64,000 nt of DNA from Heterotrichella gracilis (Eukaryota; Sar; Xanthophyceae; Tribonematales; Xanthonemataceae), in the NCBI GenBank assembly GCA_032358255.1, contig JAULBX010025054.1, forward strand, positions 1 to 64,000, in the 5' to 3' direction. Both the position numbers and the translations under genes were made by a program. Under the pieces are notes generated by a model. It ran no database searches and was not told the origin of the DNA. It saw only the letters and a program-made list of their open reading frames with translations. Position 1 is the stretch's first letter, and the number at the start of each line of letters is the position of its first letter. Below, piece after piece: positions 1,438 through 52,299 of this stretch.

Positions 1438-4400
1438 ATGGCAGCTGCGGCAGAGGCGCCACCCAGTGAGCAAGCAGAGAGCACGCCCATACACTTCTCA
1501 GAGCTATCAGCAGACACGTCGGACCAGGATGGGCAGCCGCTTGTCCTCTCAAGCCTTTGCATGCATTGTATGGAGGACGTAAGTGCTTCGCTGCACAGCA
1601 CTCCTTGCAAAATACCCACAGCTGGTTGTCCAGGCGGCGGTGCCATACCGAGCCAAACACTTGCTGTGCCAGTACAGATGCAACCATAAACAGCTTCCAC
1701 TTTCAATTTCATCACTTACAATATCTTAATTGCACCCGCATTCACAGCAACTTATCCCAGCCGTTGAACCACCCACTTCACATGTGTTTTCCTCCATGCC
1801 GGCAGGGCGAGACGACGATGCTAATGACCAAGATCCCTCACTTCCGAGAGGTGGTGCTCATGTCATTCGAGTGCAAACACTGCGGCTTCAGGTAGTCCAT
1901 CTACTGGGCCTTGAGCATGGTGGTCGTTATCTGTGCACATGCATGCATATGGGAGAACCACACACGCACACAATGCATGCATCTGCCAGACGGGGGTTTG
2001 GGGTACCTATGTGTGATGCAGTGCAGCTGCATGGGTAGAATGGTGTACAGGTTATGGTGTGAGTTGGTTTAGTACACAAAGCCCACCGCAAACCCACCAT
2101 TGTGCTGAGCCCTGGCCACTCTCCCACCCCCGCCTCTCCCACCATGCCATAGGAACAACGAGGTGCAGTTTGCTGGGCAGTATGGGGAACAAGGGGTCAC
2201 CTTCACTCTCACCATACCCATGGGCGACGCACCAACCATGAGCAGACAGGTATGGCGCGGGGGCACACTCCTATGCTCACTCCCGGCAAGGCACCATGCA
2301 GGCAGTATTATTACAAGCGTGCCAGCCACAAAAGCCAGGCAGGCATTGCACATCAAATATCGAGAATGGATGGAAATACCCAGCGATCCTGTTGTCATTC
2401 AATTGCTTTATTTTAAGCACAATGTCGCCAAAAATCCTCTGCTCAAATTCACGGTTGTGCGCCCTTGAATACCAACTGCGCATTGAGGTACCGGTATGTA
2501 CAATTTCAGGCAAAAGCATTACACCCCATCAAGATCCAACCTTGTTGGCCTGCACCAACACCCTAATGGTACCCTCCCAGGTTGTCAAGTCGGAGCACGC
2601 CATGGTCCGCATCCCAGAGCTGGATTTTGAAATTCCCGCCAGCAAGGAGAAGGCCCAGGTGACCACTGTGGAGGGGCTGCTCAGCGGCGCATCCGCAAAC
2701 CTAAAATTGCTTCAGGTGAGGTTTAACCCTGCTTTAGGTCTTCTGTATGAAGGGTGGGCAGCATCTGCATGGGGGTGTGGCCAATGCCATGTGCTGCACA
2801 TCGCACTGAGGCTGAACAATTAGACTCCTCCTCAGTATTGGACCCTAAGCCATGATGAAAATTTAACAGAAGTAGGAGGGGTTATTGCCAGGAGAGCAAA
2901 CAGGATCGTTTGCATGCATGGGCACAGCAGTGAATTCAAGTGAATACAATACAATTGCAAAGAATACAATGACATGACACATGGTTACATGAAAACGTAG
3001 CGATTGTCCTGCTGCGTCACAATCCTGGGGTAAAACCAAAATTGACTTTAAAATAACCCCTGCATTACAACACGCTGGGATGAAACAAGCCTTTGCCCAT
3101 CCCCACAGGAGGAGCGGCGAGCTGTCAATGTCGACATGGCTGAGGCAGTAGATCGGTTCCTGGAGAAGTTGGATGCGTATGCTGCTGGTGAGCATGCCTT
3201 CACCATGGTGCTGGATGACCCCGCGGGTAACAGCTTTGTGGAGAGCCCTGGGGATCCCAGGGATGACGCGCTGCTCAAGGTGGGGATGGGATGGGGTTTG
3301 GATGGATTTTGGGGGGAATTTGTGAATTGTTGGGGATCCCAGAGATGACATACTGCTCAAGGTGGGATTGAGATGGGATATTGATGGATGTTGAATGTCA
3401 GGAGTTGGGAATACGCAGGGGAAATGGGTGCTGCTTGTATATGCGTCGTATGAATGCATTCCCAGGCATGTTGAACTCGTCTTTATCTGCATGCTGTTGC
3501 TCAGCAGGGGGGTCTGGTTTGATGGTCCTGCATGCGTACCCTGTATGCAACATGACACACCATATGACATGAAGGACGTGACAAATTGAGTGCGGACGAT
3601 TTTTTCTCTATCATCCTCAATCACACCCAACATTCCGGCCCCCCACACCCACACCCAATCATCCCAACCCCCATCTCAGGTGGAGCACTACGAGCGCAGC
3701 ACCGCCCAAACCCAGGCCATCGGGCTGTCCACAGGGGAGGAGTACATCCACAGGCACGGGGAGGGCGCAAGCACAGCCACTGCGCCGCCGCCACCTGTGC
3801 CCCTGCCAGAGGGCATCAGCCCCGACGACCCCCACCACGGGGCGGCGCCGGTGGGTGCATTGGCGGCGCGCAGGGCGATGGCCAAGGCGCAGGGTCAGGC
3901 AGTGGAGTCCATGCTCAGCAGGTGGGTGCATTGCTATAAACCCTCATAATAACTTTCTAGGTTCGGTTGAAAGAATCAGCACTGTCACCTATACCAAGTG
4001 TGCACTTTCTAAATTGCAATCAACGCCACTAATTAGATTGCAATTTAGAAGTGCAGGGAATCCCTCAAAAGCACCAAAACTCTTAACTGCTTGGGCATTC
4101 GGCAGCCGGCAAAACCCCTCCCTAATCTGATCCATCCCTAACCGTATTCTGGCCTTTTGCAGGTACTCTGCCCCTGAGGAGGTGATGGACCTGCCCGGCA
4201 AAACCTAACTTCACCCTACCGTGCACCCTACTGTAAACCCTACCCTACCCTACTCCCTCGCAGGTACTCCGGCCCCGAGGAGGTGATGGATTCCCGGCAA
4301 ACCCCTAACTTTACCCTACCTTCGACCCTACTGTGAACCCTAACCCTAATTCAACCCTATCCCCATCACAGGTACTCTGCCCCTGAAGAGGTGATGGAGC

Positions 4401-6052
4401 TGCCGGGCAAGTGCTTTGCCTGCGGGGCAGACACCGCCACGCGAATGTTCCAGACGGACATCCCCTTCTTCAAGGAGGTGATCGTCATGTCCAACTCCTG
4501 TGACACCTGCGGGTACCGGAACGCAGAGGTCAAGTCCGGTGGCGCCACGAGCGCGCTGGGGAGGAAGATCACGTTGCAGGTGGGTGTGGGGTTTGTGAAG
4601 GGTTTGGGGGAAATCATGGTGCAGGTAATGCTTTTCAACATGGTCCCACAAAGGGTCTGGCATCCTGTGGTCTTGTTTCAGTTGCATGCATGCATTTGTT
4701 TACTTTGTGTTTGTTGGAGTGGCCTGGGCGAGCTGTGATGATATCCTTATTTCGTAAGTAGATATGGACATCTGATGACCACTGATGCAACAAATTGATG
4801 GGAATCTCTTTGAGCTCGCGCCAGGCCACCACCCTAAACCCTAAACCCCAGACATGCTGCACTCCATTCTTGCTGCACTCCGTTCTTGCCACCCTAGCAT
4901 GACACCCCCGCCCATTCATGTCTGGATTTAAGCTTTAGTGGCCAAAGCGGGAAAACAAGTACTGCGATGGTGGCTTGTAAGCTGCCAATTTTAACCTGCT
5001 TTGTCACCCAATAGTCTGCCAATTTTAACCCGTTTTCTCCCATCTACCTTCCCCTACAGCAACATCTACCCTTTTACCCACATGTAATGCACCCTGCAGG
5101 TTGTGGAGGAGTCTGACCTGCGGCGAGATGTGATCAAATCTGACAGCACCACTGTGTGCATCCCCGAGCTTGACTTTGAGATGGGCGCGGGAACCCTGGG
5201 GGGGCTGGTGACCACGGTGGAGGGTCTGGTCATGGCGGTGAGTGGGGATTGGGGTGGTGGAGAAGAGCCTAGTATAATGGTGTGGAAGCCTAGTATAATG
5301 GTGTTTGGTGGTGTGTGGTGCACCTTGGGGTTTGGTGCATGCCTTCACAGCCTGTAAATTGGTGACCACGGTGGAGGGTCTGGTCGTGGCGGTGAGTGGA
5401 GTGTGTGGTGGTGTGGTGGTGGTGGTGGGGTGGTGGGGTGTAGGGAAGAGCCTAGCCTGGCTGTGGAAGCCTAGTGTTTGGTGGGTGGGTGGTGTACCTT
5501 GGGGCTTCGTGCTAGGCTCACGGCCGTATAAAATTTATCTGTGTGTTTTTATCTATTAAACTTTCAATTTTATAAACAAGCCAATGTGCGCGCACCTACC
5601 TCTCTCCAGCCTTGTCACCAGATATCTCCAGACCCACCGCCCTCATACTACAGGCGGGCAATACCCTCAAGCGCACCCAAACCCTGACTAACCCTAGCTA
5701 AACCCTACTTCCCCCACCCCAGGTCGGCGACGCCCTCAAGCGCACCCAGGGCTTCCACCTGGGCGACTCTGCGCCCACCTCCGACCGACACAAGTGGGTC
5801 ACCTTCCTAGCAGAACTGGAGGACTGCCGCTGCCTGCGCCGGACCTGGACCCTACTCCTGAACGACCCCCTGGCCAATTCATTTGTGGCCCCCGTGGATG
5901 ATGATGTGGCCCGGGACCCCCGGCTGACAATCGAGGACTATGTGCGGAGTGCGGAGGAGGAGGACGAGTTTGGGATCACCGCCATGAAGGAGAATGAGCG
6001 GGCGGGGCAGGGACTGGGCGCGATTGCGGAGGAGGGGGAGGAGGGGGCGTGA
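1438..6052 (+). CDS. ZPR1: ZPR1-type zinc-finger protein
   Basis: ZPR1 family proteins bind eEF1A and shuttle between cytoplasm and nucleus. The gene has nine exons: 1438-1578, 1806-1891, 2153-2249, 2581-2715, 3109-3279, 3680-3921, 4372-4579, 5100-5237 and 5723-6052. They join in phase to 515 aa. Two ZPR1 modules are visible. Module 1 has Cys41/Cys44 and CKHC at 70-73, followed by RIPELDFEIP and a DDPAGNSFVE motif. Module 2 has CFAC at 305-308 and CDTC at 334-337, then CIPELDFEM and LNDPLANSFV. The duplicated finger plus alpha-beta layout is diagnostic. The C-terminus is acidic (EEGEEGA). Exon edges are echoed in introns near 3331, 4163, 4263, 5361 and 5652. Start: the first ATG opening the frame, context AACCATGG. 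Confidence 0.95.
3331..3368 (+). repeat. Echo of ZPR1 exon 5 donor edge
   Basis: The sequence GGGATCCCAG-AGATGAC-CTGCTCAAGGTGGG repeats the end of exon 5 (about 3249-3285) together with its GT donor and G-rich intron start, with a few substitutions. It lies about 50 bp inside the following intron. It looks like a decayed tandem copy, not a second exon. Confidence 0.85.
4160..4412 (+). repeat. Triple tandem acceptor edge of ZPR1 exon 7
   Basis: Three successive copies of the exon 7 start (GTACTCTGCCCCTGA-type) follow an AG at 4163, 4263 and 4372. They are separated by about 100-110 bp of similar C-rich intron (CCTAACTT-ACCCTACC...CCCTACTGT). The repeated unit is therefore intron end plus exon start. 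Only the third copy stays open into the zinc finger; the first meets a stop within about 45 bases. Confidence 0.93.
5361..5398 (+). repeat. Echo of ZPR1 exon 8 donor edge
   Basis: The stretch TTGGTGACCACGGTGGAGGG and the following TCTGGTCGTGGCGGTGAGTGG copy the last about 35 bases of exon 8 (near 5206-5242) including the donor, with one or two changes. A weaker echo of the exon 9 acceptor edge (CCCTCAAGCGCACCCA) sits at about 5652-5685, before the true copy at 5723. Confidence 0.88.
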
Positions 6053-6854: not shown

Positions 6855-9800
6855 GTGGGAGCTGGTGGGCGAAACACCGTGTATGCTAACGTCATGAACC
6901 CACACGGGTCAATATCTGTGGACGTTGGAGGCGTTCGGAACATGCCGAGCCGCAGGGACACGGCGACGGCTGTTATTCGCTACCTGGCAGTAGTGACATC
7001 TGACGAGGAGGTATGGGTCTTGCGAAATTTCTTTACAGACACCAGCCCAGGATTCTTGCTGGTTGGTTTCTACCGTCCTTGCGCTCACTCTAAGAGCAAA
7101 TCATAGTGTATGTGTGGGGGGAACGCACGCTCGATGTCTGTGTGTGCTTTGGTGTTGTATGCATGGGTACTTGCGCTGTACCAGGCTGGTATCACTGAGG
7201 TCTTCTCAACCCACGTGCAGGTTCCAGCAGTAAAGCAAGGGTTTGCGTCCTTCTTCTGTGTAAGTCCACAGCCCTAGTATACTTGCTTGCACCGAACGCC
7301 ATATACTGTGCCGCTACCGTATCCTTGCACACCGTATCGGTATTCTCACCTTGACCCCTGGCTGTGCGATGGGACAGGTGCTCGCTGCCTATTTCCTGCT
7401 GCTCCCACTCAGGGACGATGCTGGCGTCACTCTCGGTGAGCTTACAGGGAACTGTATCCAGGACCGTATGCCAGCCATATGCATGCACAATGGCCGAATT
7501 AAATAAATAAGAAAATAGTATTGTCGTTCACTGCAACGCATGCACATCACAGTTGCGTCCCTTGACCTGTCGCGAAGCGTGCTGCCAGCCACGAATGGAC
7601 AACGCAACCGCTGTTCTTTTTTAGAAATTCATTTCTTTGCGCAATGAAGGATTGGTTATCATGGGTGCAGGCACTTCCATGCTGCCCACCCTTTTCTCCC
7701 TCTCCCTGGTTGTCACCACTGTGGCTACCCCTCTGGCAAGCTCGCAGTTTTCCAGGCCAAATGTCAGCAGGTGCGTGCACCACGCCCTCCCCTGAAATAC
7801 TCATCTAATAGAATGCAAGAAAAGGTGACCAACGCCATGTCCATGCATTACAGAGCATGATGCCAAAAGAACCATGAGCTATCCCAGCCAACACGCGTCA
7901 TTGGGTTGGAAAATGATGGAGCCAACCCCTTTAGATTGTATCAATCCCCTGCAAGACAAGCAGCTGACAGCACACTCCCACATGCCATGGCAACACTGGC
8001 GGTGGCGCATTGCATGGATCTGAATCTGGCAACATTAAATGGATTTCGCCACGTGGACAAAACAATGCTGAGAGCGACAACATTGCCATTACTGAATGTG
8101 GTGACATGCACTCTTGCAGGGCAACTTCAGTCAAGCAGATGTACCGGATGCTCGCCATCTCAATACTAGGCAAGTTCGGGAAAGGGAGGCCACGCTTGCA
8201 TCCAATATATGCCAACTTTTGCTGCATAATAGCCCTTGGTCGCAAGCCACCCTCTCCCAGACCTACCTGTAACCGATGGTGGTGGTGCAGTTTGCCACAC
8301 CCCCGGCAAGGGTTTTGCTTCTAGGCCCCAACCTACACCTCATCCAGGTCTAGTGGTTCTAGTGTGTGCCCATTATGAGCTCTCGATGCTGCAGGCTACT
8401 TTCTTGCCAAGGTGATGCTGGTGTCGCTGGAGAACCTGCATGACCAGCACGCGCACAGGAGGGCGCTGGCAGAACCCTTGCCAAGCGGTACCGACACCCT
8501 AAACCCTAGCACAGGGTTGGGCTACCGCTACCAGCCAGCAGCCTCAGACAGCTTGCAGCAGCCTAGGCTATCAAACCCCAGCCTGTGGATGCCTTTTGGA
8601 GCTCATCCGCATGCAAATAGCAGCCAACGAGATCCCCATGCGAAACCCCAACCCCACATGCTTCCTGTATCACTTGTCAGGCAACAGTCAGGGGAGCTTA
8701 GTATGGGATCAGGGGAGCATGGTATGGGACCAGGGGAGCACAGCATGGGGGGGAACGGGAGTCAGTACACAGGTGGGGGATCGCATGCAAGGATGCTGAT
8801 AGCGGAGGAAGGCGCGGGGGCGCAGGCAGAAAACTCGCGTGGGGAGGAATTCATACAGCTGCAACTGCTGCCGCAGCAACGGCTCAGCACGGGGGCCTTA
8901 ATATCACCGGGGGGGATCCCACACCAGGGGGGAGTAATATCACAGGGGGACCAGGAGCTGCGCAGCCACATGCGCAGCCTCCTGTTCCTGGCTGACCACT
9001 ACCTCCCCTTGCTGCGCATCGTGACGCACGCCACCTTCTTCCTGTGGGTGTCGGTGCTCAACCTCATCGCCATCTCAACAATGTGGGCATGCATGGCGGA
9101 TGTATTTAATGCGGATGCGGCCGCGAGGCTGTTTGGCTTCATTGGAGCGGGCGCGACGCTAGGTGGGAAATGTGATCGGGGATAGGAGGGGGGATTGCTG
9201 TTATATGGGCTTGCCTGTAGTGTGAGGATGGTGCAGGTGTGGGTCCCAGGGGTGTGTGGAGGTGGTACAGGGCATGGGCATGGCAGCTTGGAAAATTTTG
9301 TCTCCTGTAAATCTGTAAATTTGTAATGTGGGTGCCAGCTGCCTGATATTAAATTACGAACCCCACCACACACCCCACAGGCCAGCTGGCGGGGTCGCTC
9401 ATCGCAGTCACATGGGCACGGCTGTGCACGTGGGCGGTGGCGGACCCCAACGCCAGGAAGGTACCGCTGCTGGCGCTCATGCTGGCATCAGCTGCGCTGT
9501 TTGAGTGCGCGGGCAGGCTGGCCTTTCGCCTACCGGGGCTGGATCGATCCTACCCCATGGAGACCAGGTGCGTGTGGGGAACCCTTCAAGGGTGTTGAAG
9601 GCATGGGCCAAGGGACTGTGTGTGCAAGCTTGTCGCACCGCGGCACTAATGTGGAATAATGCATCAACTAGGACCTGTAATATTAACGTATATTGTGGAC
9701 ACGGCCCCAATCAACGCATCCCATCATACTACCTTCATCTCAGTGAGATGACCTCACCCATTCACCCGCCACCCCCAGGACGTCTCCCTCCAAGCACCAC

Positions 9801-11388
9801 CACCGCGGCCCCAGCCAGTGGCAGCGCACCAGCGTGCGCCTGCTGGAGGGGTTCCACCTCATCCTGCGATCAAAGTACCTCCTGCACCTGTGCGCATACA
9901 TATGCGCGGCGCACTGCATCTCCTCGTTCTTCTATTTCGAGAAGTCGCTGGCGGTGGCGGCCGCCACGCACGACGCCGCGGGGCGCACCGCGTGGTTTGC
10001 GGCCATCAACTCGGCGTCTGCGGGCATCATTGTGGTGCTGCAGCTGGTGGCCACAGGTGGGGAGAGTTTGCCGAGGGTTAAAGGAGGGTTTAAGGAGGGT
10101 CTTGCGGCAGTATGGTGATCAGATTGGTGTCTGTGGGCATCATCGTGGTGCTGCAGCTGGTGGCCACAGGTGGGGAGGGTTAAGGAGGTTTCGGGGAGGG
10201 CAAGTATGCCTTGATATAAGATAAGGGTGCTCTAACAGGGCTGGCGGTTGTGGTGGTGAGCCACAACGCCACTGCGCGTACCGCATGGATCGGGCGTACC
10301 GCATGGAATATCAAGCTGATTGCCCCCGCCCCCTTTTCCTGTAGGGCGCATGATCGAGCTATCTGGTCCTGTCCCCGAACCTATACCTACCCATGCCAGC
10401 CAAAGTTTCCCTGACCACGAGGTTAAGCCATGTGGCCTCTCTGCCCTTGCAACAATCCACTTGAGCAAGCCCAGAACCCCCCCTCCTCATCCTCTTGTCG
10501 CAGGCCGCATGATCAAGCTGTTTGGCCTGCCCCTCTCCCTCTCCATCACCCCCCTGGCAGCCTGCCTCCTCATGGCTTCCATTAGCTACCTACCCGTGCC
10601 AGCCACAGTGGCCCTGGCGGAGGTCCTTCGCAAGATTGTCAACTACACCCTGGCGAGGCCTGCCAGGGAGGTGCTGTTCACAGTGGTCAGTGCCGAGGAG
10701 AAGTACAAGGCCAAGATCTGCATCGACATGCTGGTGCCGCGCATTGGGGACGTGAGTGGGGAGGGGTGTGGGGCAGGGTGTGGGGGTAGGGGTTTGTGTG
10801 GAAGGTGCCAGGGTTTGCACTAAGGGTATGGATGGGCCCGATAGGTCACACCTACCACGGTGTTTCCGTGATAGCTTTGTGGAGGGTCTGGGGAGGGTCT
10901 GATCTGGGGAAAGTATAGTTGATGAAGCTATGACATTAAAATGTACAATGCATCTGGTGTGTCCTTGTGCCGACACCCCGCCCCACTTTCCAACCGATGA
11001 CCCTATGACCCCATGTCATCCCCCACCCCTTCACATGCAAACCCTGACTCCTACGGCATACCCACACTGCCCACAAATAACTTCACTCTGAACCCATTCC
11101 CAACAAAACCCAAACCCTACTGCCACCCCAAAATGCACACCCTAACTTCCCGCCACTTGCCCCCACCCGCAGGCCGGCGCAGCTGCAGTGGTGCGGGTCA
11201 TCCAATCGCTGCTGGGCGACGATGTGGTCCAGATCGCACGCACATGCGCCCCGCTGTGCCTGCTGTGGTGCGCAATCGCATACAGCTTGGGGGTGCGGCA
11301 GCAGCGGGCGGCGGCGGCGCAGGGGGCGGGGCGTGGGGACAAAGGGGGGATGGGGGTTGGGGCGGTGGCGCTATCAGGAGAATTGTAG
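6855..11388 (+). CDS. TLC (ADP/ATP carrier-like) MFS transporter
   Basis: A multi-pass transporter related to the bacterial/plastid TLC nucleotide translocases and their MFS relatives; substrate unknown. Exons: 6855-7010, 7221-7259, 7378-7435, 7671-7770, 8120-8169, 8395-9162, 9381-9567, 9779-10056, 10504-10751 and 11173-11388, about 699 aa. Family signatures: LLPLRDDAGV in the first helix region, WVSVLNLIAISTMW then ARLFGFIGAGA, LRSKYLLHLC, RTAWFAAINS, and RPAREVLFTVVSAEEKYKAK. The C-terminus is low-complexity. Odd: a hydrophilic insert of about 170 residues (about 147-320) in exon 6, with repeated GEHxMG units, interrupts the loop before WVSVLNLI. The intron after 8169 has a GC donor. The start is uncertain: an in-frame ATG at 6894 is also possible. 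Confidence 0.85.
8170..8394 (+). other. GC-AG intron in transporter gene
   Basis: The exon ends ATACTAG and the intron begins GCAAGT, a consensus GC donor. It ends with GATGCTGCAG. Only this junction keeps frame (phase 1) between LAISIL and GYFLAKVM. Confidence 0.8.
10118..10192 (+). repeat. Echo of transporter exon 8 donor edge
   Basis: GGCATCATCGTGGTGCTGCA followed by GCTGGTGGCCACAGGTGGGG repeats the true exon end at about 10022-10066 nearly base for base, including the donor and the G-rich intron start with GGGTTAAGGAGG. It is about 105 bp downstream of the original. Confidence 0.93.
10337..10412 (+). repeat. Echo of transporter exon 9 acceptor edge
   Basis: TGTAGGGCGCATGATCGAGC and the following bases, including CCCATGCCAGCCAAAGT, resemble the true exon start at 10504 (CGCAGGCCGCATGATCAAGC ... 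CCCGTGCCAGCCACAGT), with an internal deletion. The AG acceptor is kept. The echo lies about 165 bp upstream of the real acceptor. Confidence 0.85.
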
Positions 11389-12559: not shown

Positions 12560-13050
12560 TGATCAATTCTGTTACCCCAGTAGTGGCACTGTTGCTGGAG
12601 CAGCCACGGCAGCAGCCCCACAGCGCCCCCCCCACCCCCACCCCCACCCCCACCCTCTCAACCACACCCGCCCACATCCACACACTGGCCCCGACCACAG
12701 CCATTCCAGTAGCTTCTCCCTGCACGCAGCTCCAAGCCATCGCCAAAACTAACCGACCCTAGTGGTGGTCAGCATGCACATAGTTATTGAAAAAGAAGTT
12801 TTGCTCCGTGCGCTTGAGCAGTCACACTACCAGCTCCACAGCCCCCACCACCAGCACACAGCCCCCAACCTCATCCAGTGGCTTCTTACTGCACGCAGCA
12901 CCAGCACTAAGCCATCGCCAAAAATCAACCTACCCTAGTGGTGGTCCGCATGCACGTAGTTGTTGAAGAAGAACTTCTGCTCCGTGCGCTTGAGCAGCCA
13001 CAGCGCCAGCCCCACAGCCGCCACCGCGGCCCCACACACCCCCACCGGCT
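12560..13050 (-). repeat. Three-copy tandem array of PAO terminal exon and 3' region
   Basis: The last exon end with its stop codon (12935 onward) is repeated at about 12768-12850. That copy still encodes LLKRTEQ-FFFNNYVHADHH plus a stop. A third, more eroded copy starts near 12570. The 3' flanks repeat too: CTGCACGCAGC and AAGCCATCGCCAAAA recur near 12720 and 12890. The unit is about 170 bp. The second copy would translate to almost the same C-terminus. Confidence 0.9.
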
Positions 13051-27814: not shown

Positions 27815-27960
27815 CTAGAGGCAGAACAAGGTGTGAAGTTCCTGATTTTGCCTGACGCCCCTCACAAACAGGTGCGGCAACTGCGCCTGAAGCACCTGGA
27901 CAGTTTTTATCGCAAAAACCGCCCCCCGTTTGGGATTGACACAGGTAAACCTTGATCCCA
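27815..27960 (-). repeat. Tandem echo of terminal exon with stop
   Basis: This stretch aligns with 27999-28175, the end of the unknown gene's last exon. Shared blocks include CAGGTG-GG-A-CTGCGCCTG followed by AGCACCTG and, further on, CCTTGATCCC and GCGCACC. A stop codon sits at the equivalent place. Identity looks about 60-65 percent by eye, so it is an old copy. Confidence 0.75.
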
Positions 27961-27998
27961 CCCACATGCGCACCAGCCAGGATCTGCCTCTCCTGCGG

Positions 27999-30900
27999 CT
28001 ATAGGCAGACCATGGTGTGGGAGTCGGTCTTGCGCCTGCCATCCCTCACCATCAGGTGTGGAAGCTGCGCCTGGAGCACCTGAACTGTCTGGGTCACAAA
28101 ATCGTCCCCCTCGGGACCCTCCAAAACCACCCGGATCCCCTCGGGACCGCTGCTGGGGACCTTGATCCCGCCGAATTCGCGCACCGGCTCCGGGATGACC
28201 TCCAGGTTGCTCAGGGTTTTGTAGGCGATGCGGCCAAACCCTAGGGCCTCCACGCGGTAGCTTCCCGATAGGCCCATGGTGCGGCAGGCCTCAGCGGATT
28301 CGCGTAGCTCGTGGCGCGCGGCGTAGAGCAGGTTTTTCAGGAGGTCCTTGTTGGCGCGCGTGGAGGTGGACTGCACATGAATGAGTTGTTTGTAAAGGAT
28401 CGGCATGCAAAAACAAATGTGTTGAGGATTGGCATGCAGAACAAAATAGCTTTTCATTCCTTGAGAAGTCATGATGCACATATAGGTGGGAAAATCGTTT
28501 ATTTGGTTTTAGATGCATTGTTTGTAATGTTTTCATACAACAGCCAGTGACGCGGCGCAGCAGGACATTTGATCAAGGAGGTTATTCTTGGTATGGCGCG
28601 CAGCAGGGTAGACTGCAATTGACATTTGTTTTGCAAGTAACATCAAGGTAAGGCGAACCAACAGAAGATGCCACCCATGCCCAGAAAACCCCTACATCCT
28701 ACCAAACACCCTGCACCCCGCAACCCCAGGCGCGGCCAGGTAAACCCTCCAAAAGCCCATTTCTTACCTGCACCGTCCGCACAATGAGCGCGGTCTGGCC
28801 GGTGTGTGGGTGCGTGAGCCTCAGCAGCACAAAGTGGAACAGGCGCTGCACCTTGCCTAGCGCCCTCACGTCGTGCACACGCAGCCTGCCGGCAAACCAC
28901 TCCTTGCGCGCCAGAAGCCTGCAGGGGGGCAACAAGAGACACGTTACTGGGCTGGATAATTGGATTTGATATTGTAATTATTATTCTATTTTTTTTTTCA
29001 ACATGTATTTTTTAACTTTTTAAGTTCCAAGAATTATAGATATTTTGTTGCTTACCTTGCCGGGCGCAGAAGTCCCTCAACTTTGAATTGAATTGCGATA
29101 ATATATGGTGCGTATGCCTGTTGAGCCCAGAAGCTTAAGCCTTGAAACTTAAGGGTGTGGCGTACCTGGGTGCGCTGGCCTCGCTGGGCATCCCCCTGGG
29201 GCTCGGTAACCGGTTCACATCCAGCGATTGAGACAGCAAGCTGAGCTGGCGCCTCATGTCGAGTGGGGGGTCGGGGGCACCGGCTGCGCCAGTGGAGGGT
29301 GGTGGGGGGTCGCAGGTGGGGGGCGCATGCTCCAGCTCAGCAAAACCCCCCACTGTAAACGCAGGGGAATTGGTGTTGGAGCCTGCAGGGGAAGGAAAGG
29401 AGGTTACGAAATTAGCCTCAAGAGGGATTAATGCGGGGATTTGGGGTGTAGCCTAGAGGCGAGGGAGGGGATAGGCACAAGATGGGAGGGAAGGCATGCA
29501 TGTGTAGGGGCGGGGATGGCATCGGACAGATGGCATTCAATGGGAGGTGCAGCATGGGACACCGAAAACCAACCCTATCTGTCAGATGAGGCAGCTACTG
29601 CATCATGGGCATGTGAGGCACGGCATCATGCCGTCGGCATGACCACCGTGCAAGTGCCGCTTCGGATTGTTGCCAGGGTTTATAACACTCAGCATCAGAG
29701 CTTTGTAAGCTCTGCCGGATATGCGCCCATCCACAGCGCCAGGCTGTGATGGCAAGGGACTTTCAGGGGTCATACTCATGATTGAGGATATACTGTGGCA
29801 CTGAGCCCACAAGAGCTGCGCCAGCTACTAAAAAGGGCAGAATGTCGTCCTACAGGGTTACATCTAGGGTTTTGGTCTAGGAGTTCGGGTGTCAATATGC
29901 GCACCAGAGCTTTGCGAGCTGCCGGAGGTGCGCCCCGCCCGCAGCGCCAGGCTGTGGTGGGCCGGGTGCTGCGGCGGCTGTGGTGGTGGGGGGCGGTGGG
30001 GCCGCTGGTGGGGGCTGGCGGGGGGCGTGGCTGATGAGGTGGTGGTGGGGCTGATCCCCCCCGGGCTGCTGCCGCTCCTCCCCTGCCTGCGCAGCTCCAT
30101 GTATTCCTCCAAGGTGGGGAAGGCCTGCGGAGGGTTGGGCATGGTTTAGGGATTTGGGGTGGTAAACGATGGGCTTTGCCCCTAAAGTAGGGACCCCTCA
30201 CTCTGCTTAGGTCGGGTTGATTCTTTCCTACAGCCGCAGATTACCACACCTCATCTTCTACCCTGCCTCCTTGTCAAGGGCCTCCTCAGCGATTGCCTCC
30301 CATTCCCATCCAGCTAGCCAGACACCCTGTGCCCCATTCAACTCACACCCTTAAAAACCTCACGTGAAGGTTCACCCCTTTACCCTACCTCTTCCGGTTT
30401 GTGTGCGCTGGCCTCCCACTCCCTTGCCTCCAGCCCAGACACCTTGTGGCGCATCCAGCTGGCGCCCAGGTTGACAGGGGAGGGGGCGGTGGGGCGAAGC
30501 TGCGCGTGGTGGGGCAGCGGGTAGGTGGGCGCGGCTGGTGGGGGCGGGGCCTGGGCGGCGGCGGAGGTGGTGGCGCCAGCGTCTGTGCCTGTGGGGAGGG
30601 TGGTGGGAGGAATGGTGGTGAGGAAGTGCATGCGATTGAAATCTCGACAAAATTGGTTCATGTGATCAGCCCAGGACGGCACATTGTCATGGGCTGATTG
30701 CATGGGTGGCGCATGTGATTGACCAAGCATTAGTATGGTCCATGTGATCCGCCATGCGTCAGCTTGGTGCATGTCATCGGTTTTGCATTGGGATGGCTCA
30801 TGTAATCGGCAAATCGCCAGGATGGCGCGCGCGATACGCAGCGATTGCCAGAATGGTGCCCAACCGCTCGGCAAAATGATGCATTTGTTCTGCCATCCAT

Positions 30901-32104: not shown

Positions 32105-32119
32105 AGGCCCACCTCCTGC

Positions 32120-33376: not shown

Positions 33377-34597
33377 ATGGTGCGTGCCATGCCTGCCGGG
33401 CTGCGATGCAGTCGTGCAGCTTTGGAGGGCCATGCGAGGCCCCATTTGCACGCATACCACCGTGGTCGCCGCCGCCTGCTCCTCCATGCATTAGCACTCT
33501 TATGAGACATGGTTCTGACAGTCCCATACCCATCCTGTGCTGCTTGTTCTTATCCTCGTTGTAGGGCTGTTGGCTTCATCGTAGGACACCGTGCTGTTGT
33601 TGTGGGGGCGCCTGTGACAGTGTATTGTGCACCTGCAGTCGAAGCGCACCAAGAAGGTTGGTATTGTTGGCAAGTACGGGACTCGCTATGGTGCGAGTCT
33701 CCGTAAGCAGATCAAGAAGATCGAGGTCAGCCAACACTCGAAGTACTTCTGCAGCTTCTGCGGCAAGGTGGGCATGCAATCCTTGGGCTAAAGCAGATGC
33801 AGATGAAATGCACAGCAGCCAGCTGGGTCTTTCAGTCTGTTGCAGTAGCGCTGTCTGGCAGCAGAGCAGCGTCGGAAATTCAGCGTGGGAATGGGGTGGT
33901 TGGGTTTTGGGCACTTTGCAGAGGGGATGCACAGCATCACATATGCAAATTGGGTTGGGGTTCTTGCTTTGTGCGTCACCACTTGCTAATGAGGGTTTCT
34001 GGGCAAATACAGCTAATGCTACAGCCCAAACATAGATTTTGCAACTTTGCTCACAACCATAGCAGGTATCCATGGGGTGCACAAACGCATCAAGCTCATA
34101 TACGTGCACCACTACTTGATGGAGCCATCTGATAGGCCACCCTGGGATTTGGCGTCTCAACTACTCCCCCTTTGCTTTGCAGTTTGCCGTGAAGCGGACA
34201 GCAGTGGGCATCTGGAACTGCAAGTCCTGCAAGAAGACACAGGCTGGCGGTGCATACCTGCTCCAGTAAGTGAACCTCACAAGCGCCTATACTAGTGTTG
34301 CCAACGTTACGTTTGGGGCTCTTCACCACAATGACGTGGCATGAGTTGGTATGGGGTCCATTACCCTTCCTGTGCATGGTGTGAGTGACAAGCCACTAGT
34401 TTATTGGTGTTTGTATGTGGCTACACCCACGTCCATCGGGGGCTCGCATAGTCCTTGCACTGGTCCGCTTTTACTGTGCCCTTAGGTACTTGGCTGGCAT
34501 AAGCTGACCTGCTCGTGGTGTGTTTCTGTGCAGCACCGGCTCCTCCGTGACTGTCAGGAGTACCATCAGGCGCCTGCGCGAGCAGACCGAGAAGTAG
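33377..34597 (+). CDS. RPL37A: 60S ribosomal protein eL43 (L37a)
   Basis: A zinc-ribbon protein of the large cytosolic ribosomal subunit. Four exons: 33377-33379 (only the ATG), 33639-33767, 34183-34265 and 34534-34597, giving 92 aa, exactly the family length. Visible: [20 protein letters not shown], the zinc ligands CSFC and CKSC (Cys-x2-Cys twice), [10 protein letters not shown], and the end [14 protein letters not shown]. The ATG-only first exon (TCAAGATG|GTGCGT) is inferred from phase and from the requirement for a Met directly before SKRTKK. No echoes are seen in this gene, and a TGTAA signal lies about 110 bp past the stop. Confidence 0.96.
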
Positions 34598-42584: not shown

Positions 42585-42592
42585 AATTTATG

Positions 42593-42597: not shown

Positions 42598-43117
42598 GAA
42601 AAGAAACATTGAATTTCGCAAAAGGCGTAAATAAGGCGGCATAGCAACTACGCATAGCTTGTCCTTAAATACATGATACAATGGGGCACGCCCCATTCTT
42701 TTAACCCAATTGAACATTTGGCAAACGTTACTTTTACAACCTTTGAGGCTATCTGGCCCACAAGAGTGTGCGTCAGCTAGGCGCTGACAACGTCACAATG
42801 TCACCTGTCATCGAAGTGCTAAGTTAAACAAGGCATTACATCGAAGTGCTGACGAGCCCACACAGTCTGCTGCAATATTTGGCACGCCTATGCAATTTCC
42901 AGGCAAGAAGGTTGATGTTGCCTCACGCATGGTGCTGTACTGTGCTGTCTTCACAAAACAGAGCAACCCCCGCCGCCCTCAGTCCTCCGGGCCCCTTTCC
43001 TCCACTCCATCAACTCCCTGCCCCCCCCCCCCCTCCCCACTTCAACTGAGCCCTTCCTCCCCACGATCCCCCCCTCAGAGCCCCTGCCTCTTCCCCCCTT
43101 CGCATAGCCACCTCCCC
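42598..43117. other. Convergent intergenic region DUF819 / SF3A3
   Basis: About 520 bp of 3' flanking sequence of two convergent genes, including C-rich runs near 42968-43060. Nothing else recognised. Confidence 0.4.
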
Positions 43118-46100: not shown

Positions 46101-47723
46101 TTGGTCAGGCTGCACAGGTACTCCATGTAGTCGCACTGCCTGGGAAACACAATTGGTTGGGCCGCGTCAGTTCCCATGGGGTTGTGCATTTTTACTGTGC
46201 AGGACTTCACTCGTGTGGAGTAGTTTCAGTAGTTCACATGAACCGCAATATCCGCTACTTGCACAGCCTAGGAGCAGCAGGGGTGCACACCACAGGTTAA
46301 AAATCCGCCGATTTCCCATGGCCAACGTAACAGAATGCGTGCAGCTTGATGCATGTGCATGCCCCCACCCCGTACCTTCCGAACTTTGCATTTGTGTATA
46401 TTTGGTGCAGCTCGTGCAGGTCCAGGTAGCGGCCCAGCCCCTCCTCCCCGCTGAATTTGACATCAGGCTCCCCCCTGAGCCCCTCATCCTGGTCCTCTGC
46501 GGAGGTGAAATCGAACAGCTGGTGCTTCTTGTGGTACTCGCGCACCTCCTTCAGGCGGTCGTAGAAGGTGCTGCGGGGTGGTGGGTTAGGTATGTGGGGG
46601 GGAGATACTGGTGGTGGTGGTGGGACGCGTGTGCAAGTGGGTGTGGGGGTGTGGGGGTGGTGGTAGTGCTTCTTGTGATACTCGCACATCTCCTTCCCGC
46701 AGTTGTAGAAGATGCTGCAGAGTTGTGCAGTGAGGTGTCGTGTGTGGATTGGTGGTTGCCGGCGTTCGGGAACACAACCCTAAAACCCTAATCCCTTCAT
46801 CGTGGCAGGCAAGCCTGGCCTCTTGAGCGGGTGGCGAACACTGTGGCTCACCTGAACACGTTCTCCCCCCGCAATGACGCAATCTCCTCCTTGCGCGCGT
46901 TGTCGTCGTCCTGGTAGACTTTGATCTGCGGGGTGGTGCAGTGGTGCGGGTGAGTGAGGCTCAGGAGAGCTGCTCTCAACGCCGTTGCAACTCCTATTGT
47001 GAGATTATGGATGATGAAACCACTAGGCTGCGTTGAACTGGCGAAGGACTTGGGCGACGTGGGTTGCGTTCTGGTGCAGTCATGGGGAGTGCATGCACTG
47101 CGGAAGTGCACCCACCAGCTTGGACGCCCGGTCCTGTAGCGTGTCCAGCGCTTTCCGTACTCGGTGGTTCTGGTACAGCCTGTCCTTGTGGGTCTTGACC
47201 TCGTTCTTGAAGTCCTTCACCACCAGCCGTTCCAGCTTCTCAACTTCTTCATGCAACTCTGAGGATGCAAACAACCCACCCCATTAGCCATGGCCAACGG
47301 TGATGCAGGGCACAGGTGCAGTGGGTGGCCCAACTTAATGCAACCACCACCAGTGCTTGCTTGCATCATGTGCTTTCTGCCTTTCACGAGCTGGTGCGAA
47401 GTGCCAGCCCCTAGGGAACCCCCTGTGGTGATACAGGTGCAAGGTTGTTTCATGCCTGGCACACACCCCGTCGAGCCGTGGCCACCGGTGCTGCAGGTGT
47501 ACAGGCTTTGGCCAAAGAGGGGACGGTACCCGTGAAGAGGGTATTGCACCAGGCTGGCACCCGGTAGCGAGGTGCACTCGAGGCTGCTACACGCTATATG
47601 CATGCATATGAAGATGGTTAAGTTGTGTGAAGACCACGGCTGTGCTTGGTAAACCTGTAGAACGAAATTGATGCAACACCGATGAAACCTACCTCGTGTT
47701 CTCTCTAACAGTGTGCTGGCCAT
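43118..47723 (-). CDS. SF3A3: Splicing factor 3A subunit 3 (SF3a60)
   Basis: A U2 snRNP (SF3a) subunit needed for pre-spliceosome assembly; nuclear. Eleven exons: 47693-47723, 47116-47258, 46852-46925, 46376-46570, 45968-46139, 45605-45746, 45089-45237, 44604-44789, 44038-44207, 43592-43721 and 43118-43228. They give exactly 500 aa (human about 501). Visible: N-terminal [16 protein letters not shown] and [31 protein letters not shown]; the SAP-like [20 protein letters not shown]; the acidic [20 protein letters not shown]; the matrin-type zinc finger CEIC (409-412) with [20 protein letters not shown]; and the conserved end [13 protein letters not shown]. Echoes of exon edges lie near 43357, 44266 and 46662. 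Confidence 0.96.
43357..43398 (-). repeat. Probable echo of SF3A3 last-exon acceptor edge
   Basis: CAGCCTCAGTGAAGCCACCTG resembles 43199-43219 (CAGCCTCGGTGAACCCACCCG), followed by weaker similarity. Old copy; moderate confidence. Confidence 0.55.
44266..44337 (-). repeat. Echo of SF3A3 exon 9 acceptor edge
   Basis: GTATATGTACTCGTCCTCAT ... AGCAAGGGCATCCTGGGGGG copies 44164-44220 with four or five changes and includes the acceptor and the C-rich intron end (on minus). The copied reading frame ([17 protein letters not shown]) is still intact, so use of this upstream acceptor would insert acidic residues. Confidence 0.93.
46662..46727 (-). repeat. Echo of SF3A3 exon 4 acceptor edge
   Basis: GTGCTTCTTGTGATACTCGC ... 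GTTGTAGAAGATGCTGCAGAG matches the real exon edge at 46520-46580 (GTGCTTCTTGTGGTACTCGC ... GTCGTAGAAGGTGCTGCGGGG), acceptor included. Confidence 0.9.
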
Positions 47724-48606: not shown

Positions 48607-51600
48607 ATGAACCATCTCTCTGGGGCCCTATGTATCACGGCCCTGGTATGGGCCAGCGCCTTCCAGCAGCTTCCAGTTACAGGAGGCAGCCTAGCCCATC
48701 TGGGTGACCACACAGGCCCACATAGGGGCCTATTGGTGGAAGGAGAGCGGGTCACCTTTTCAGACGATGGCGCCTCCCGCTTGCTCGAGGAGCGGGGGGA
48801 CCAGCTCATCCTGCCAGGCAACGACCGGAAGCAGTCAAGTACGCCGCCAACCAACCAGACACTCTGTGCCGCACATAGCACTGCACCCTCCCATAAACCC
48901 CGCGGTGGAATCACCAGCTGAGGTTGCACTGTGCCATAGTACAGCACATTACTGCACCTCCCCAGACCCCTGTGGTTACATCACCAGCTGGTCACACTCT
49001 CGTATAGCACAACACAGTATTGCATCCGTCTACAACCTTGCAGTGAAACCACCACCTGAGGTCCACCGGCAGGTTGCATCCTCCTGTAGTACAGTGCATT
49101 GTGATTGTACAATTACAATTAAATTGTAGTACAGCACATTGGATTCCATCCTCCCTGAAATTAACCCCACCCATGGACCTTCTCACTGCAGCGGCCCATC
49201 GGCACTCGGACTTCAAGCCCCGGCACCATGCAAAGCAGAAAGCCAAGGCGACCATCGCCTGGATGAACGTCCCGCCCATTGACCCCAAGACCCTAAACTC
49301 CATCCCAGAGTCCGACACCACTCCCCGGGACCTGCTGCGCACCACCAAGCCCGAGGTGTGGCTGTACTGCCTGCTGGCTGCGGACTATGGGGGCGCCCAA
49401 CTGCTGCCGCACTTCCTGGTGCACTACCTGCAACTAGGTGAGGGGAATTCACATTATTGTGGTAAAACCAGGGCCGTATGCTTTTGCGGGTAGGCACAAA
49501 GTACTAAATATGATACCACCCATCGTGACCTGCTGCATACCACCAAGCCCGAGGTGTTGCTGTACTGCCTGCTGGCTGCAGACCGGGGGCGCCCAGCTGC
49601 TGTCACACTTCCTGGTGCACTACCTGCAGCTAGGTGAGTGCTATAGTGGTGCCACCCCCTCAACATGGCCACCAAGCATGTTGCACCGTGCAACCACAAA
49701 CCATGGCAATAGCCAGTTGTTTGCCACAGCTCGTATTGGGGGTGTTACAGGCCACACAAGCTGAAAACAGCTTTCCACGATATGGCCATGGGTACAGGCA
49801 TTGTTGAGTAGTGGGTCATCTTCATCGTCGCCTGCAACTCTCAACCCCTAACCCCTAAACCCTCGCCGGGGCAGGCATCGCCAAGGAGCGCATCCTCTTC
49901 ATCATCAACACACCCAACCTCAACCTTCACATCCCCACCCCTGCAGGCATCGCCAGGGAGCTCATCCTCTCATCATCAACTCCAACCCCAAACCCTACCC
50001 CTAAACCCTAAACCCCCAACCTTAAACCCTACATCCCCACCCCTGCAGGCATCGCCAGGGAGCGCATCCTCTTCATCATCAACTCCAACCCCGCGCACAA
50101 GGACATCCCCGAAAACGCGCTGCGCGACATGACCGACGTGCTGCACGAGTTCGAGGTGGACTACCGCGTGTGGCTGGGCCAGTACTCCGCAGAGGCGCAC
50201 CTCAAGCGCAAGCTGCTGGTGCTGATGCAGGTGCCGGTGCAGGACTGGATAATACTTGTGGACAGCGACGAATTTCAGGAGTATGGGGGGAGGTCGGTGG
50301 AGGAGTTTTTGGGGTCTGCTGATAGGGAGGTGGGTGCGACCTGAAACCCTAAAAGGGCCTGGCTAGGGAGGTGGGTGGTACCCAAAATCCTAGAACCCTA
50401 TTAGGGCCTGGCTAGGACAGCGACGAGTTCCAGGGGTACGGCGGCAGGTCGGCGGAGGAGTTTATTGGGGTCTGGCGATATGGAGGCGGGTAAGACCCTA
50501 AAACCCTAAAACCCTAATCTGTGGCTGCTAGGACCCTAAACAGTGTCCCCCTTCCTACAGGGCGCCAATTGGATCAAGGGGCTGTTTGTTGACCGGGTGT
50601 CCATGACCGGCAAGCTCACCCCCTTGGCCAGCACCCCCAGCATTTTCGAACAGTACCCCCTGCGCTGCGAGGTGGCTGTGCATGTGGCGCATGCTGAGAA
50701 GGTCAAGGTGGCCGCTTTCAAGGTGGGTGTGGGTGTGGGTGTGGGTGGGGCGGCCTCAGGATGGGGGTGGGGGTGGGAGGGGGGAGATACTGATCAGCAA
50801 GACAATGCCAAGAGCTGTTTACTGGCCCATGCTGCATCCATCCCCTAGGCCAACCAATGGCAGGGCACCTCCTGGGAGGCCAAGCCACGCTGCAGGCCAT
50901 CCAGCCATGCGCTAACCCTGGCACACCCTGGCACATGCACACCCGCACACACACACGGTACCGCTTGCAGGGCTTTCTCAAAACTTACACTTAAAACCCT
51001 AATCCTGGTGGCCCCGCAGGGCTTTTTGCGGTCGGGTGTGGGCAACCACGGCATCATCGCCGCGTGGCACGCCCGCAAGTACTACGGCCCTGCCCAAGTT
51101 GGCGAGGAGAGCGCGCGCTACGGGCTGTGCGGGGCAGAGGACTACTTCTCACTCACCCCATACTACAAGTACGGGATACCCTCTCCCAGATAGGGTTTGG
51201 GATCCCAGATAGGGTTTGGGAATTATGGGAAAATAGCAGAAAATGTGTTTTACCACCCTTGGCCCAGCCTACGTGAGCAACAAGACCAGTGCACTAGTTG
51301 GCTTTGTTTCGTTTTATCTCCTCGTTGGACGCTCAGCACCATCAGCTAAAGGTTAAAGCGTTCACCGCTCTGTGACTTACATGCTCTGTCACTCCACCAG
51401 GTACCACAAGTACTACTGGATGCACCAGTCGCAGAGGAACCCGTGGCTGTGGAAGCTGGCGGAGGGGTCCACCAAGGTAACGCAAGGGGGTGGGAGAGGG
51501 CAGGGGAGGAAGCGCATCGCCTGGCTGCGCCATGCGATTTACTCAAGCACATGCCTGACTGCGCATTGCTCTCAATAGCTCACGTATTGCTTATTGAAGG

Positions 51601-51999
51601 GGTCACAATACAGGAAGGTTGGCCCCGCAGTGGCATGGCATGTGGAGACTGTGCACCAACCCACGCAATCCACTCAAGTTCCTACCCAAAACGCTACCAA
51701 AACCCTACTCAAAACCCTACACCCCACACCAGGTGAACGTGCACCACTTCAAGTGGCACAAGGGGGTGGAGCGCTCTATCCGCGACAGGCTGGCGCACTA
51801 CCGGGGGGACGATGAGCAGTGCGCGCCCGGCCAGCCGCGCTTCAAGTTCTGGCGGGAATCGGAGCGGCTACAGAAGGAGATCCAGCGGCGGGACGGGATT
51901 GATGTGGTCAACCCCCTGCTGGACTGCCAGATTGCGGAGGATGTGCGGGGCAAGGTGAGCTGGCCGCCGCCGCCGCCCGCCAAGCTCGTCATTCACTGA
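48607..51999 (+). CDS. Family-2-type glycosyltransferase, secretory pathway
   Basis: Likely a Golgi/ER-lumenal glycosyltransferase of the GT2-like (PF13704-type) class; acceptor unknown. Exons 48607-48838, 49192-49437, 50049-50329, 50561-50722, 51020-51168, 51401-51476 and 51733-51999 give 470 aa. The N-terminus is a signal peptide or anchor (NHLSGALCITALVWASAFQQ). Core: AADYGGAQLLPHFLVHYLQL, ERILFIINSNPAHKDIPENA, VDYRVWLGQYSAEAHLKRKL, the metal/nucleotide-sugar motif DWIILVDSDEFQEY, NWIKGLFVDRVS, and the distal HHFKWHKGVERSIRDRLAHY. Exon edges are echoed at 49518-49640, 49875-49985 and 50411-50492, and the terminal exon again beyond the stop. Confidence 0.88.
49518..49642 (+). repeat. Echo of glycosyltransferase exon 2 donor edge
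   Basis: About 120 bp repeat the end of exon 2 (49319-49441), e.g. ACCACCAAGCCCGAGGTGT and TACTGCCTGCTGGCTGC, including CTAGGTGAG at the donor, with about 85-90 percent identity by eye. Base loss in the copy (GACCGGGGGC) disturbs its frame, so it is not an alternative coding exon. Confidence 0.93.
49870..50090 (+). repeat. Triple tandem acceptor edge of glycosyltransferase exon 3
   Basis: GCAGGCATCGCCAAGGAGCG, GCAGGCATCGCCAGGGAGCT and GCAGGCATCGCCAGGGAGCG start at about 49872, 49945 and 50045. Each is followed by CATCCTCT and a CATCATCAAC block. Between them lies C-rich telomere-like intron (CCCTAAACCCTAAACCC). Only the last copy continues as an open exon. Confidence 0.95.
50404..50495 (+). 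repeat. Echo of glycosyltransferase exon 3 donor edge
   Basis: GACAGCGACGAGTTCCAGGG ... GGCAGGTCGGCGGAGGAGTT and GGGGTCTGGCGATATGGAGG repeat 50262-50334, including a GT at the equivalent donor. The copied DSDEF motif is readable but the flank is not an open exon. Confidence 0.92.
50723..50785 (+). repeat. (GGGTGT)n at intron start
   Basis: A short G-rich repeat GGTGGGTGTGGGTGTGGGTG follows the donor at 50722, then more GGGG runs. Potential G-quadruplex in the nascent transcript. Confidence 0.7.
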
Positions 52000-52056
52000 C
52001 CCCGGGAATGGCTACGGCGCTGCCGCAGTCTTAAATTTCTGATTTTGGTGCTGGCA

Positions 52057-52299
52057 AGAGTTGGAGCGGTTGCAGAAGGAGATCCAGCGGCGGGACGGGA
52101 TTGATGTGGTCAACCCCCTGCTGGACTGCCAGATTGCGGAGGATGTGCGNNNNNNNNNNNNNNNNNNNNNNNNNNNNNNNNNNNNNNNNNNNNNNNNNNN
52201 NNNNNNNNNNNNNNNNNNNNNNNNNNNNNNNNNNNNNNNNNNNNNNNNNGGGCAGGGTGAGCTGGCCGCCGCCGCCGCCCGCCAAGCTCGTCATCTACT
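52057..52299 (+). repeat. Copy of glycosyltransferase terminal exon split by gap
   Basis: 52057-52149 matches 51863-51950 almost exactly (GAGCGGTTGCAGAAGGAGAT, CCAGCGGCGGGACGGGATTG). After the gap, 52250-52299 matches 51949-51999 including the stop. Either a recent tandem copy of the last exon or an assembly artefact at a contig join. Confidence 0.9.
52150..52249. other. Assembly gap (100 N)
   Basis: Exactly 100 Ns, the usual placeholder for a gap of unknown size. Confidence 0.99.

Follow-up and report, generated by a model that had tools for sequence, protein, structure and literature searches.

Partial duplications inside genes are reportedly common, and those considered here differ from them in being dead-looking fragments of exon margins that lie in introns and are tied to telomere-like repeats. 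The published account of the potato RdRp gene describes a head-to-tail duplication from an intron into the next exon, with a new spliced intron and RNA evidence for it in this one gene (Ma, Lan and Niu 2016, PMC4974935). As far as that account goes, the likeness lies in a tandem duplication across the intron-exon boundary in both cases; unlike the single potato gene, about 5-7% of exon edges are involved here (about one in every fourteen to twenty-one), the copies are mostly old and a new intron was not seen. What we found in the window (the whole 64-kb stretch of DNA analysed) and elsewhere in the genome are tandem genomic duplications crossing the exon-intron boundary, in the form of junction-spanning repeats of which one copy decays freely. 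In Drosophila, novel intron positions have been ascribed to sliding or tandem duplication, and proto-splice sites in coding exons to give rise to new introns (PMC2891723); our data share with that description tandem duplications in genes with splice signals, whereas here existing exon margins are copied instead. Introners, as presented in PMC9860276, have large-scale intron change in common with our case, but the introns here are not copies of each other: pairwise comparison of 464 introns gave 40 hits at E≤1e-4, many of them short, the longest being a dispersed repeat in three introns, and introner elements were therefore rejected. In mammalian cells, CST-guided Pol-alpha fill-in at staggered breaks was reported, at Cas9 cuts, to produce small tandem duplications (insertions <100 bp, 50 bp overhangs), CST being also involved in telomere fill-in (PMC8355091). 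The likeness to that report consists in small tandem duplications; here the break points are old, and only the association with telomere-like words bears on CST. Short plant-type telomere motifs inside chromosomes have been reported to lie preferentially in 5' flanks and mainly in 5' UTRs, whereas here such motifs lie in introns near duplicated exon margins. Single cases are already known, and what is new is the density and the link to telomere-like repeats.

The presence of these copies, which we call echoes, at exon edges was confirmed both in the window and beyond it. Our sample comprised the window and 24 further 10-kb stretches of the 68.5 Mb genome, with gene models predicted ab initio without RNA, and the edges compared were those with an exon of at least 40 nt and an intron of at least 100 nt (772 edges). 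At a score of at least 18, a match to the own intron was found at 55/772 edges versus 6 of 3,860 comparisons with introns of other genes, and at a score of at least 24 the figures were 36/772 and 0/3,860; exon-interior windows gave no match to introns at this latter score (0/204). Outside the window, 36 of 614 edges matched their own intron (score at least 18), and inside it 19 of 158, spread over six predicted genes. The alignment of edges with their own introns thus bears out the phenomenon, which an earlier note had described from the letters of the window. Its 18 places are about right and its eight genes somewhat high (six predicted genes reach a score of at least 18), since the gene finder mistakes some echoes for exons, so that among the 19 window edges some are a single family counted at two edges, and additional copies in the window span predicted 3' ends of genes. 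The cyclophilin and TRAP-beta genes have no echoes in the edge listing, as the note had claimed of both. Furthermore, the first 294 kb contained 103 local repeats (E≤1e-3, low-complexity score ≤3), and none turned up when each sequence was randomised three times by a block-wise Markov procedure, while the direct repeats at the places named in the window were recovered by two methods, some of them being also read by eye.

On the forward strand, the donor edge 3249..3311 of the ZPR1 gene (exon ending at 3279, followed by GTGGGG) has an echo at 3331..3393 (83% identity, offset 82). In the same gene, the real acceptor edge 4369..4410 (exon from 4372) is preceded by two acceptor echoes, 4159-4201 and 4260-4302, with telomere-like filler between, and the exon placed by the gene finder at 4264-4296 falls inside this echo stretch (4159..4302); the donor edge 5206..5259 is echoed at 5360..5413 (91%), and here the remainder of the unit is homologous too (p=0.003). 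A weak acceptor echo of the edge 5720-5748 lies at 5651..5679. The forward-strand gene 6942-11385, one exon of which was scanned and gave no family hit, has a donor edge at 10005..10088 with an echo at 10118..10200 (82%, offset 113), and 10323..10416 reads as the acceptor echo of an exon starting near 10503, the gene finder starting an exon at 10345. On the reverse strand, a VanA_C-domain oxygenase gene has three copies of about 175 bp (12594..13046) spanning its predicted 3' end (12938); these copies are absent from the filtered lists behind our counts, apparently lost to the low-complexity filter. Two copies (27815..28110, 71%, offset 184) likewise cross the predicted 3' end of the reverse-strand gene 28002-33487. 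Further reverse-strand pairs are the donor edges 29901-29960 and 30405-30467 with echoes at 29692-29752 (81%) and 30289-30350 (73%), and the acceptor edges 14568-14639, 31312-31343 and 43174-43216 with echoes at 14661-14733 (71%), 31398-31429 (88%) and 43348-43388 (81%). An SF3A3-containing gene model on this strand has two echoed acceptors, namely edge 44158-44268 with a complete tandem echo at 44267-44379 (80%) and edge 46522-46583 with an echo at 46666-46727 (82%), which the gene finder fuses as one exon. Back on the forward strand, a glycosyltransferase-like gene (family hit below the cut-off) has a donor edge at 49314-49442 echoed at 49512-49638 (88%); by our reading its donor is at 49438, and by the gene finder at 49419. 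Downstream, one acceptor edge is present three times (49836-49909, 49910-49989 and the real edge 50012-50092) with telomere-like filler, the donor edge 50260-50354 is echoed at 50415-50511 (84%), and an exon end is copied in tandem at 51846-52053 and at 52048-52149 plus 52250-52357, a 100-N gap lying within the second copy. This last exon end (51846-52357) is a stop-codon end by our frame reading and has a donor at 51955 according to the gene finder. An unmerged contig overlap was rejected here, as the first halves of both copies are on one side of the gap. Echoes mistaken for exons affect, by our reading, four of the gene models in the window, which calls for caution with gene finders.

Codon-position, tandem-structure and splice-dinucleotide counts rest on 44 mapped events, with offsets of 40-369 nt (94-127 in 19 of them), and the repeats span the junction at all 44 mapped junctions. 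Complete head-to-tail duplications, defined by a match over 80% or more of the offset, made up 19/44 events and partial ones 25/44. These complete units, together with the longer intron stretches searched at echo edges (median 350 versus 244 at other edges), support the proposal that short tandem duplication across exon-intron junctions lengthens introns. In 19 events (18 partial, 1 complete) the remainder of the supposed unit lent itself to a test, and it showed homology at p<0.05 in only 3, so that plain tandem copying with subsequent point decay cannot account for all events. Differences at first, second and third codon positions were 58/616, 64/616 and 123/616 over all 44 events, and in complete units the exon part diverged by 0.137 and the intron part by 0.211 (ratio 0.65), as expected when one copy is constrained and the other free. 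The surplus copies look dead, and their decay is neutral-like. Three or four copies were present in 10/44 events (two of these ten being one family). Divergences gathered around 0.2, and the intron part was below 0.10 in 2/33 events, both of them at doubtful predicted junctions (49419 and 49947, two families in one window gene). A range from near-identical to barely alignable copies is thus half right, its near-identical end being weak, and with so few young copies a steady process is doubtful.

The duplications were also unevenly placed. Among 30 families, 26 crossed a junction (or joined an exon copy and an intron copy), 2 were intron-only, none intergenic, 1 at a gene edge and 1 in an exon, compared with a crossing:intron-only:intergenic ratio of 621:405:377 in a simulation of random placement plus decay. 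With the window left out, the ratio was 15:2:0, and 32:6:1 under loose thresholds. Exon margins are therefore favoured over intron interiors and intergenic DNA beyond what random placement and decay give; survivorship alone leaves the rarity of intron-only and intergenic duplications unexplained, and exons must be hotter. Duplications were found at the predicted stop-codon ends of 4/51 genes, so the process seems not to be specific to splice junctions; predicted start ends had none (0/50). In same-exon duplications the offset was divisible by three in 17/18 HSPs, most of them from a few repeat proteins.

In addition, echo junctions tend to sit near degenerate TTTAGGG words. For 38 echo junctions, the mean number of such words within 90 nt was 4.16 versus 1.97 expected within the locus (p=0.0004), a link discovered and tested largely on one and the same data. 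The 27 echo junctions outside the window gave 3.30 versus 1.96 (p=0.02), and scoring presence instead of number gave a weak difference (0.55 versus 0.40, p=0.03). Echoes and telomere-like words were also associated at the locus level (rho=0.61, 25 loci), and the filler at unit joints was telomere-like (7.66 versus 6.53 of 14, p=0.0002). At the intron level, outside HSPs, the number of such words showed no association (p=0.58), only the test near junctions being positive, and telomere-like microhomology at exon-side break points was not significant (p=0.08). As a separate hint, echo donors were G-rich, with 10.2 G-run bases (n=13) versus 5.5 (n=382; p=0.008, or 0.029 within echo loci only), and the signal at echo acceptors was weak (p=0.047 and 0.217).

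Duplication of AGGT-type proto-splice sites is an established model for the creation or sliding of introns, as set out in PMC4974935 and PMC2891723, and the duplications here do include splice sites. As an explanation of our data it is very unlikely: donor and acceptor agreed in AGGT register at ≥28/60 in 1/464 introns (null 0.10%), apparently an echo mistaken for an exon, and at ≥26/60 in 4/464 (null 0.55%), and splicing at the echo would introduce a stop in 33/44 events, with 3/44 in frame and open. Rogers-model intron gain was rejected on the single, apparently artefactual intron at ≥28/60; the suggestion that echoes create introns was not borne out, and the idea that they move them found little support. 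It is also highly improbable that echoes are regulated alternative splice sites, such as unproductive or alternative exon ends. The splice dinucleotide was unchanged at 38/44 echoes (39 counting a GC donor), in line with that reading, but this retention (0.86) is barely above the value of about 0.80 that we estimate for neutrally decaying copies that have taken on half of the divergence of the pair, and the codon pattern is that of a free copy. Selection keeping the dinucleotides was rejected on these figures; alternative or mutually exclusive tandem exon ends fit poorly with the 3/44 echoes in frame and open and with the free-copy codon pattern.

Divergences near 0.2 with few young copies, and the scaffold gap at 52150-52249 inside one copy, could suggest divergent haplotypes or homeologues laid side by side in the assembly. 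This is quite improbable, since two functional alleles would be expected to differ above all at third codon positions whereas first and second positions each had about half the differences of the third, three or four copies occur in 10/44 events, and no N separates the first halves of the two copies beside the gap; haplotype false duplication as a general cause was rejected by the codon-position pattern. Intron breaks might instead have been patched with nearby sequence by polymerase-theta or SDSA type synthesis, a rather unlikely source of the echoes that accords with the 25/44 partial events and with the 16/19 tested remainders without homology at p<0.05. Such templated filler should copy intron and exon interiors too, yet exon-interior windows gave 0/204 matches and 19/44 events are complete tandems. 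RNA-mediated copying of spliced or unspliced transcripts would place events in genes and few between them, as found, and 7/42 echoes matched the neighbouring exon past the junction at p<0.05; but by our reading five of the seven are at places where an echo had been called as the neighbouring exon, another belongs to a repeat protein, and the last (L018 1453) is weak. A clear spliced-mRNA junction was seen in none of the 42 echoes, and this origin is extremely improbable.

Taken together, we consider it likely that the echoes are tandem duplications from break repair, retained where the reading frame leaves one of the copies out. Ordinary DNA-break repair would make short tandem duplications that strike coding exons and exon margins preferentially, and survivorship would then act as a filter: duplications wholly within an exon would be purged unless in frame, whereas those crossing a margin (donor, acceptor or stop codon) could persist, as one copy can stay outside the mRNA or the reading frame, the surplus copy decaying as dead intron or 3'-flank sequence. 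Less surely, intron-side break points may fall at degenerate TTTAGGG-type repeats acting as break or priming sites, CST-guided polymerase-alpha fill-in at these repeats being a possible example. A more far-reaching, doubtful possibility is that intronic degenerate telomere repeats turn exon margins into duplication hot spots, where telomere-maintenance enzymes acting at breaks (CST with polymerase alpha-primase, or telomerase) would copy the margin, including the splice site or stop codon it contains, so that introns lengthened in an episodic burst; if true, the dead exon ends that remain as echoes would be a fossil record that can be dated.

Lastly, if the pattern is genome-wide, introns would owe part of their growth to the uptake of dead copies of the ends of their own exons, and exon margins would be targeted by duplication, as opposed to random places. 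Each echo would then provide, next to the constrained original, a neutral and dated copy of its coding sequence, giving many natural replicates with which splice-site competition and decay could be measured, and the link to telomere-like repeats would offer a testable mutational cause.

The exon-edge echoes, decayed extra copies of an exon end and its splice site sitting in the adjoining intron, hold up as an observation and reach beyond the window. Local direct repeats spanning exon edges lie where the earlier note had placed them, and a search at E≤1e-3 that allowed low-complexity scores of up to 3 found 103 repeats in the first 294 kb of our sample, but none after block-wise first-order Markov randomisation (three per sequence). 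The sample was taken from an assembly of 68.5 Mb in 903 contigs and comprised, besides the window, 24 further 10-kb stretches, placed blind to content on contigs that a kinase search had named, and eight short loci from that search (334 kb in total); the per-locus and per-edge tests covered the window and the 24 stretches. The earlier note had proposed to compare each exon edge with its own intron, and this comparison, made on 772 edges with at least 40 nt on the exon side and 100 nt of intron, bore out its claim: at a score ≥18, 55 edges matched their own intron, and 3,860 pairings of an edge with an intron from another gene gave 6 matches; at a score ≥24 these counts were 36 and 0. At the higher score, none of 204 exon-interior windows matched, and outside the window 36 of 614 edges matched at a score ≥18 (by subtraction). 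The matches fell in 51 introns, and 23 of the 66 genes and 13 of the 25 loci had at least one. Echo events clustered: 44 were mapped among 906 junctions (chi2 63.1, 24 df, p=2e-5).

Gene models came from an ab initio, self-trained gene finder made for this analysis, which predicted 77 genes and 464 introns (median 256.5 nt) with GTGAG-like donors and TGCAG-like acceptors. Pfam named ZPR1, SF3A3, PPR, cyclophilin, TRAP-beta, SET, YidD and VanA_C genes in the window, the glycosyltransferase match falling below the cut-off. Taken by itself, this gene content would suggest an alga of the green lineage. On our reading, some models mistake echoes for exons: window 4264-4296 and 49875-49946 are echoes called as exons, 46376-46714 is a merged exon containing one, and at 10345 an exon start is called at an echo. 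The gene finder also joins the PPR-repeat gene at 53240-58075 to the glycosyltransferase-like gene immediately 5' of it. Among the most frequent intron heptamers were words of the TTTAGGG repeat (AAACCCT, AACCCTA, ACCCTAA and complements), as well as TGCATGC and ATGCATG. In predicted introns 160 nt or longer, the sequence following the donor is G-rich (G makes up 0.45 of the first ten positions, counting the donor consensus) and that preceding the acceptor is C-rich, with telomere-type C-strand words most frequent in the last fifth. A dispersed repeat lies in predicted introns of two other sampled loci (L019 769-1007 and L032 9032-9269, 97% identical) and of the window (61359-61504, 86-88% identical to either), and window 1-77 is a perfect (TAAA)n tract.

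One event per junction, the nearest copy, was retained, giving 24 acceptors and 20 donors. A few families were counted twice, once at each of a pair of predicted junctions (window 49947/50049; sampled locus L016, 9852/9945). Offsets between original and copy span 40 to 369, with 19 of the 44 at 94-127. A complete head-to-tail unit, with the match covering ≥80% of the offset, was found in 19 events, and the match was shorter in the other 25; the remainder of the unit was homologous at p<0.05 in 3 of 19 testable events (18 partial, 1 complete), and the remaining partial events are decayed, broken up by later insertions or other than simple tandems. Ten events have three or four copies, two of these ten being one family. 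Tandem duplication across junctions and lengthening of introns, both claimed earlier, are supported. Creation of introns is not: of the 464 introns, one shows the AGGT register expected of intron gain at ≥28/60, and it is apparently a mis-called echo. An introner-like origin was rejected, as introns are not mutual copies, and an origin from spliced messages was without clear support.

In complete units the copies differ at 107 of 781 exon-part and 285 of 1,352 intron-part sites (ratio 0.65), and in partial units at 138 of 1,067 and 110 of 566, respectively. Over all 44 events, differences at codon positions 1, 2 and 3 numbered 58, 64 and 123, each of 616 sites, a pattern that one constrained and one free copy would give. 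Two functional copies would differ mostly at third positions; haplotype mixing, which also predicts mainly third-position differences, was rejected as a general cause on the same counts. In the window, a scaffold gap (52150-52249, 100 N) falls within the second copy of an exon end in a 202-bp duplication; this copy is not an unmerged contig end, because the first halves of both copies share one side of the gap. The flanking copies align straight through the gap, whose true length may approach zero. Splice dinucleotides are intact in 38 of 44 echoes (39 counting a GC donor), close to the neutral-decay level, use of the echo site would introduce a stop in 33 events, and three echoes are in frame and open. 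Echoes are best read as dead sequence.

Intron divergence, estimated for the 33 events whose alignments had 20 or more intron columns, was <0.10 in two, 0.10-0.20 in 12, 0.20-0.30 in 14 and higher in five. The steady process proposed in the earlier note should give many young copies, but both events below 0.10 belong to one gene (junctions 49419 and 49947, wrongly predicted on our reading). Either activity was episodic or near-identical copies were collapsed by the assembler, although collapse should remove only the very youngest copies.

Of the 30 families with at least 80% identity, a length ≥40 and offsets of 60-400, 26 either span a junction or consist of one copy in an exon and one in an intron (one of the 26, at 51846, may mark a gene end instead); two are intron-only, one lies at a gene edge, one within an exon and none is intergenic. 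For comparison, 3,982 artificial duplications were placed randomly on the same sequences and, after excluding 496 exon-only and 43 ambiguous ones, decayed and passed through the same detector, which recovered 621 at junctions, 405 in introns, 377 in intergenic sequence and 56 at gene edges. Limiting simulated age to near the observed range raised the expected junction share to 0.53 (0.60 in the oldest band tried) at the ≥80% identity threshold; at the loosest threshold 0.37 was expected versus 47 of 56 observed, and without the window the observed counts were 15 of 17 and, at the loose threshold, 32 of 39. Binomial p-values for the junction excess, from 2.5e-3 to 7.5e-13, overstate certainty because families cluster in loci and simulated unit lengths come mainly from junction events. 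The process seems not to need splicing, since duplications also occur at predicted stop-codon ends (4 of 51 genes; 0 of 50 at predicted start ends) and in 17 of 18 HSPs from same-exon duplications, mostly in a few repeat proteins, the offset is a multiple of three. A filter purging frame-breaking duplications would fit this distribution; beyond it there is an excess of events at exons that such a filter would not explain.

The TTTAGGG-repeat words showed a further association, spotted and then tested mostly on one data set, to which only the loci L029-L032 were added later. Their density outside the copies correlated with echoes per 10 kb across the 25 loci (rho 0.61, p=0.001; without the window, rho 0.59, p=0.002). 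Within 90 nt of 38 echo junctions the mean was 4.16 words versus 1.97 expected by within-locus permutation (p=0.0004; without the window, 3.30 versus 1.96 at 27 junctions, p=0.02), and the share of junctions with at least one word was 0.55 versus 0.40 (p=0.03). The 14 bases at the unit joint scored 7.66 for telomere likeness versus 6.53 for intron positions drawn randomly from the same locus (p=0.0002). An intron-level test of words outside the matches was flat (p=0.58), and the likeness at exon-side break points was not significant (p=0.08).

The open-access literature, mostly as titles and abstract openings, was searched for telomere-like repeats in algal introns, interstitial telomeres and intronic tandem duplications, tandem duplication at splice sites, internal duplication, break repair in rice and plants, and intron expansion. 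In that material no description of this echo density or of the telomere link was found, nor any paper that treats interstitial telomeres together with intronic tandem duplications. Earlier work reports a new intron from a single duplication over an intron-exon boundary in potato (PMC4974935), tandem duplication with intron sliding in Drosophila (PMC2891723) and small tandem duplications via CST-guided Pol-alpha fill-in in mammalian cells (PMC8355091), and mention interstitial telomere repeats in Chlamydomonas (PMC6549138). Relative to this known work, the new elements in Heterotrichella gracilis are the density of echoes, their apparent burst, the preference for exon margins, predicted stop-codon ends included, and the association with telomere-like repeats.
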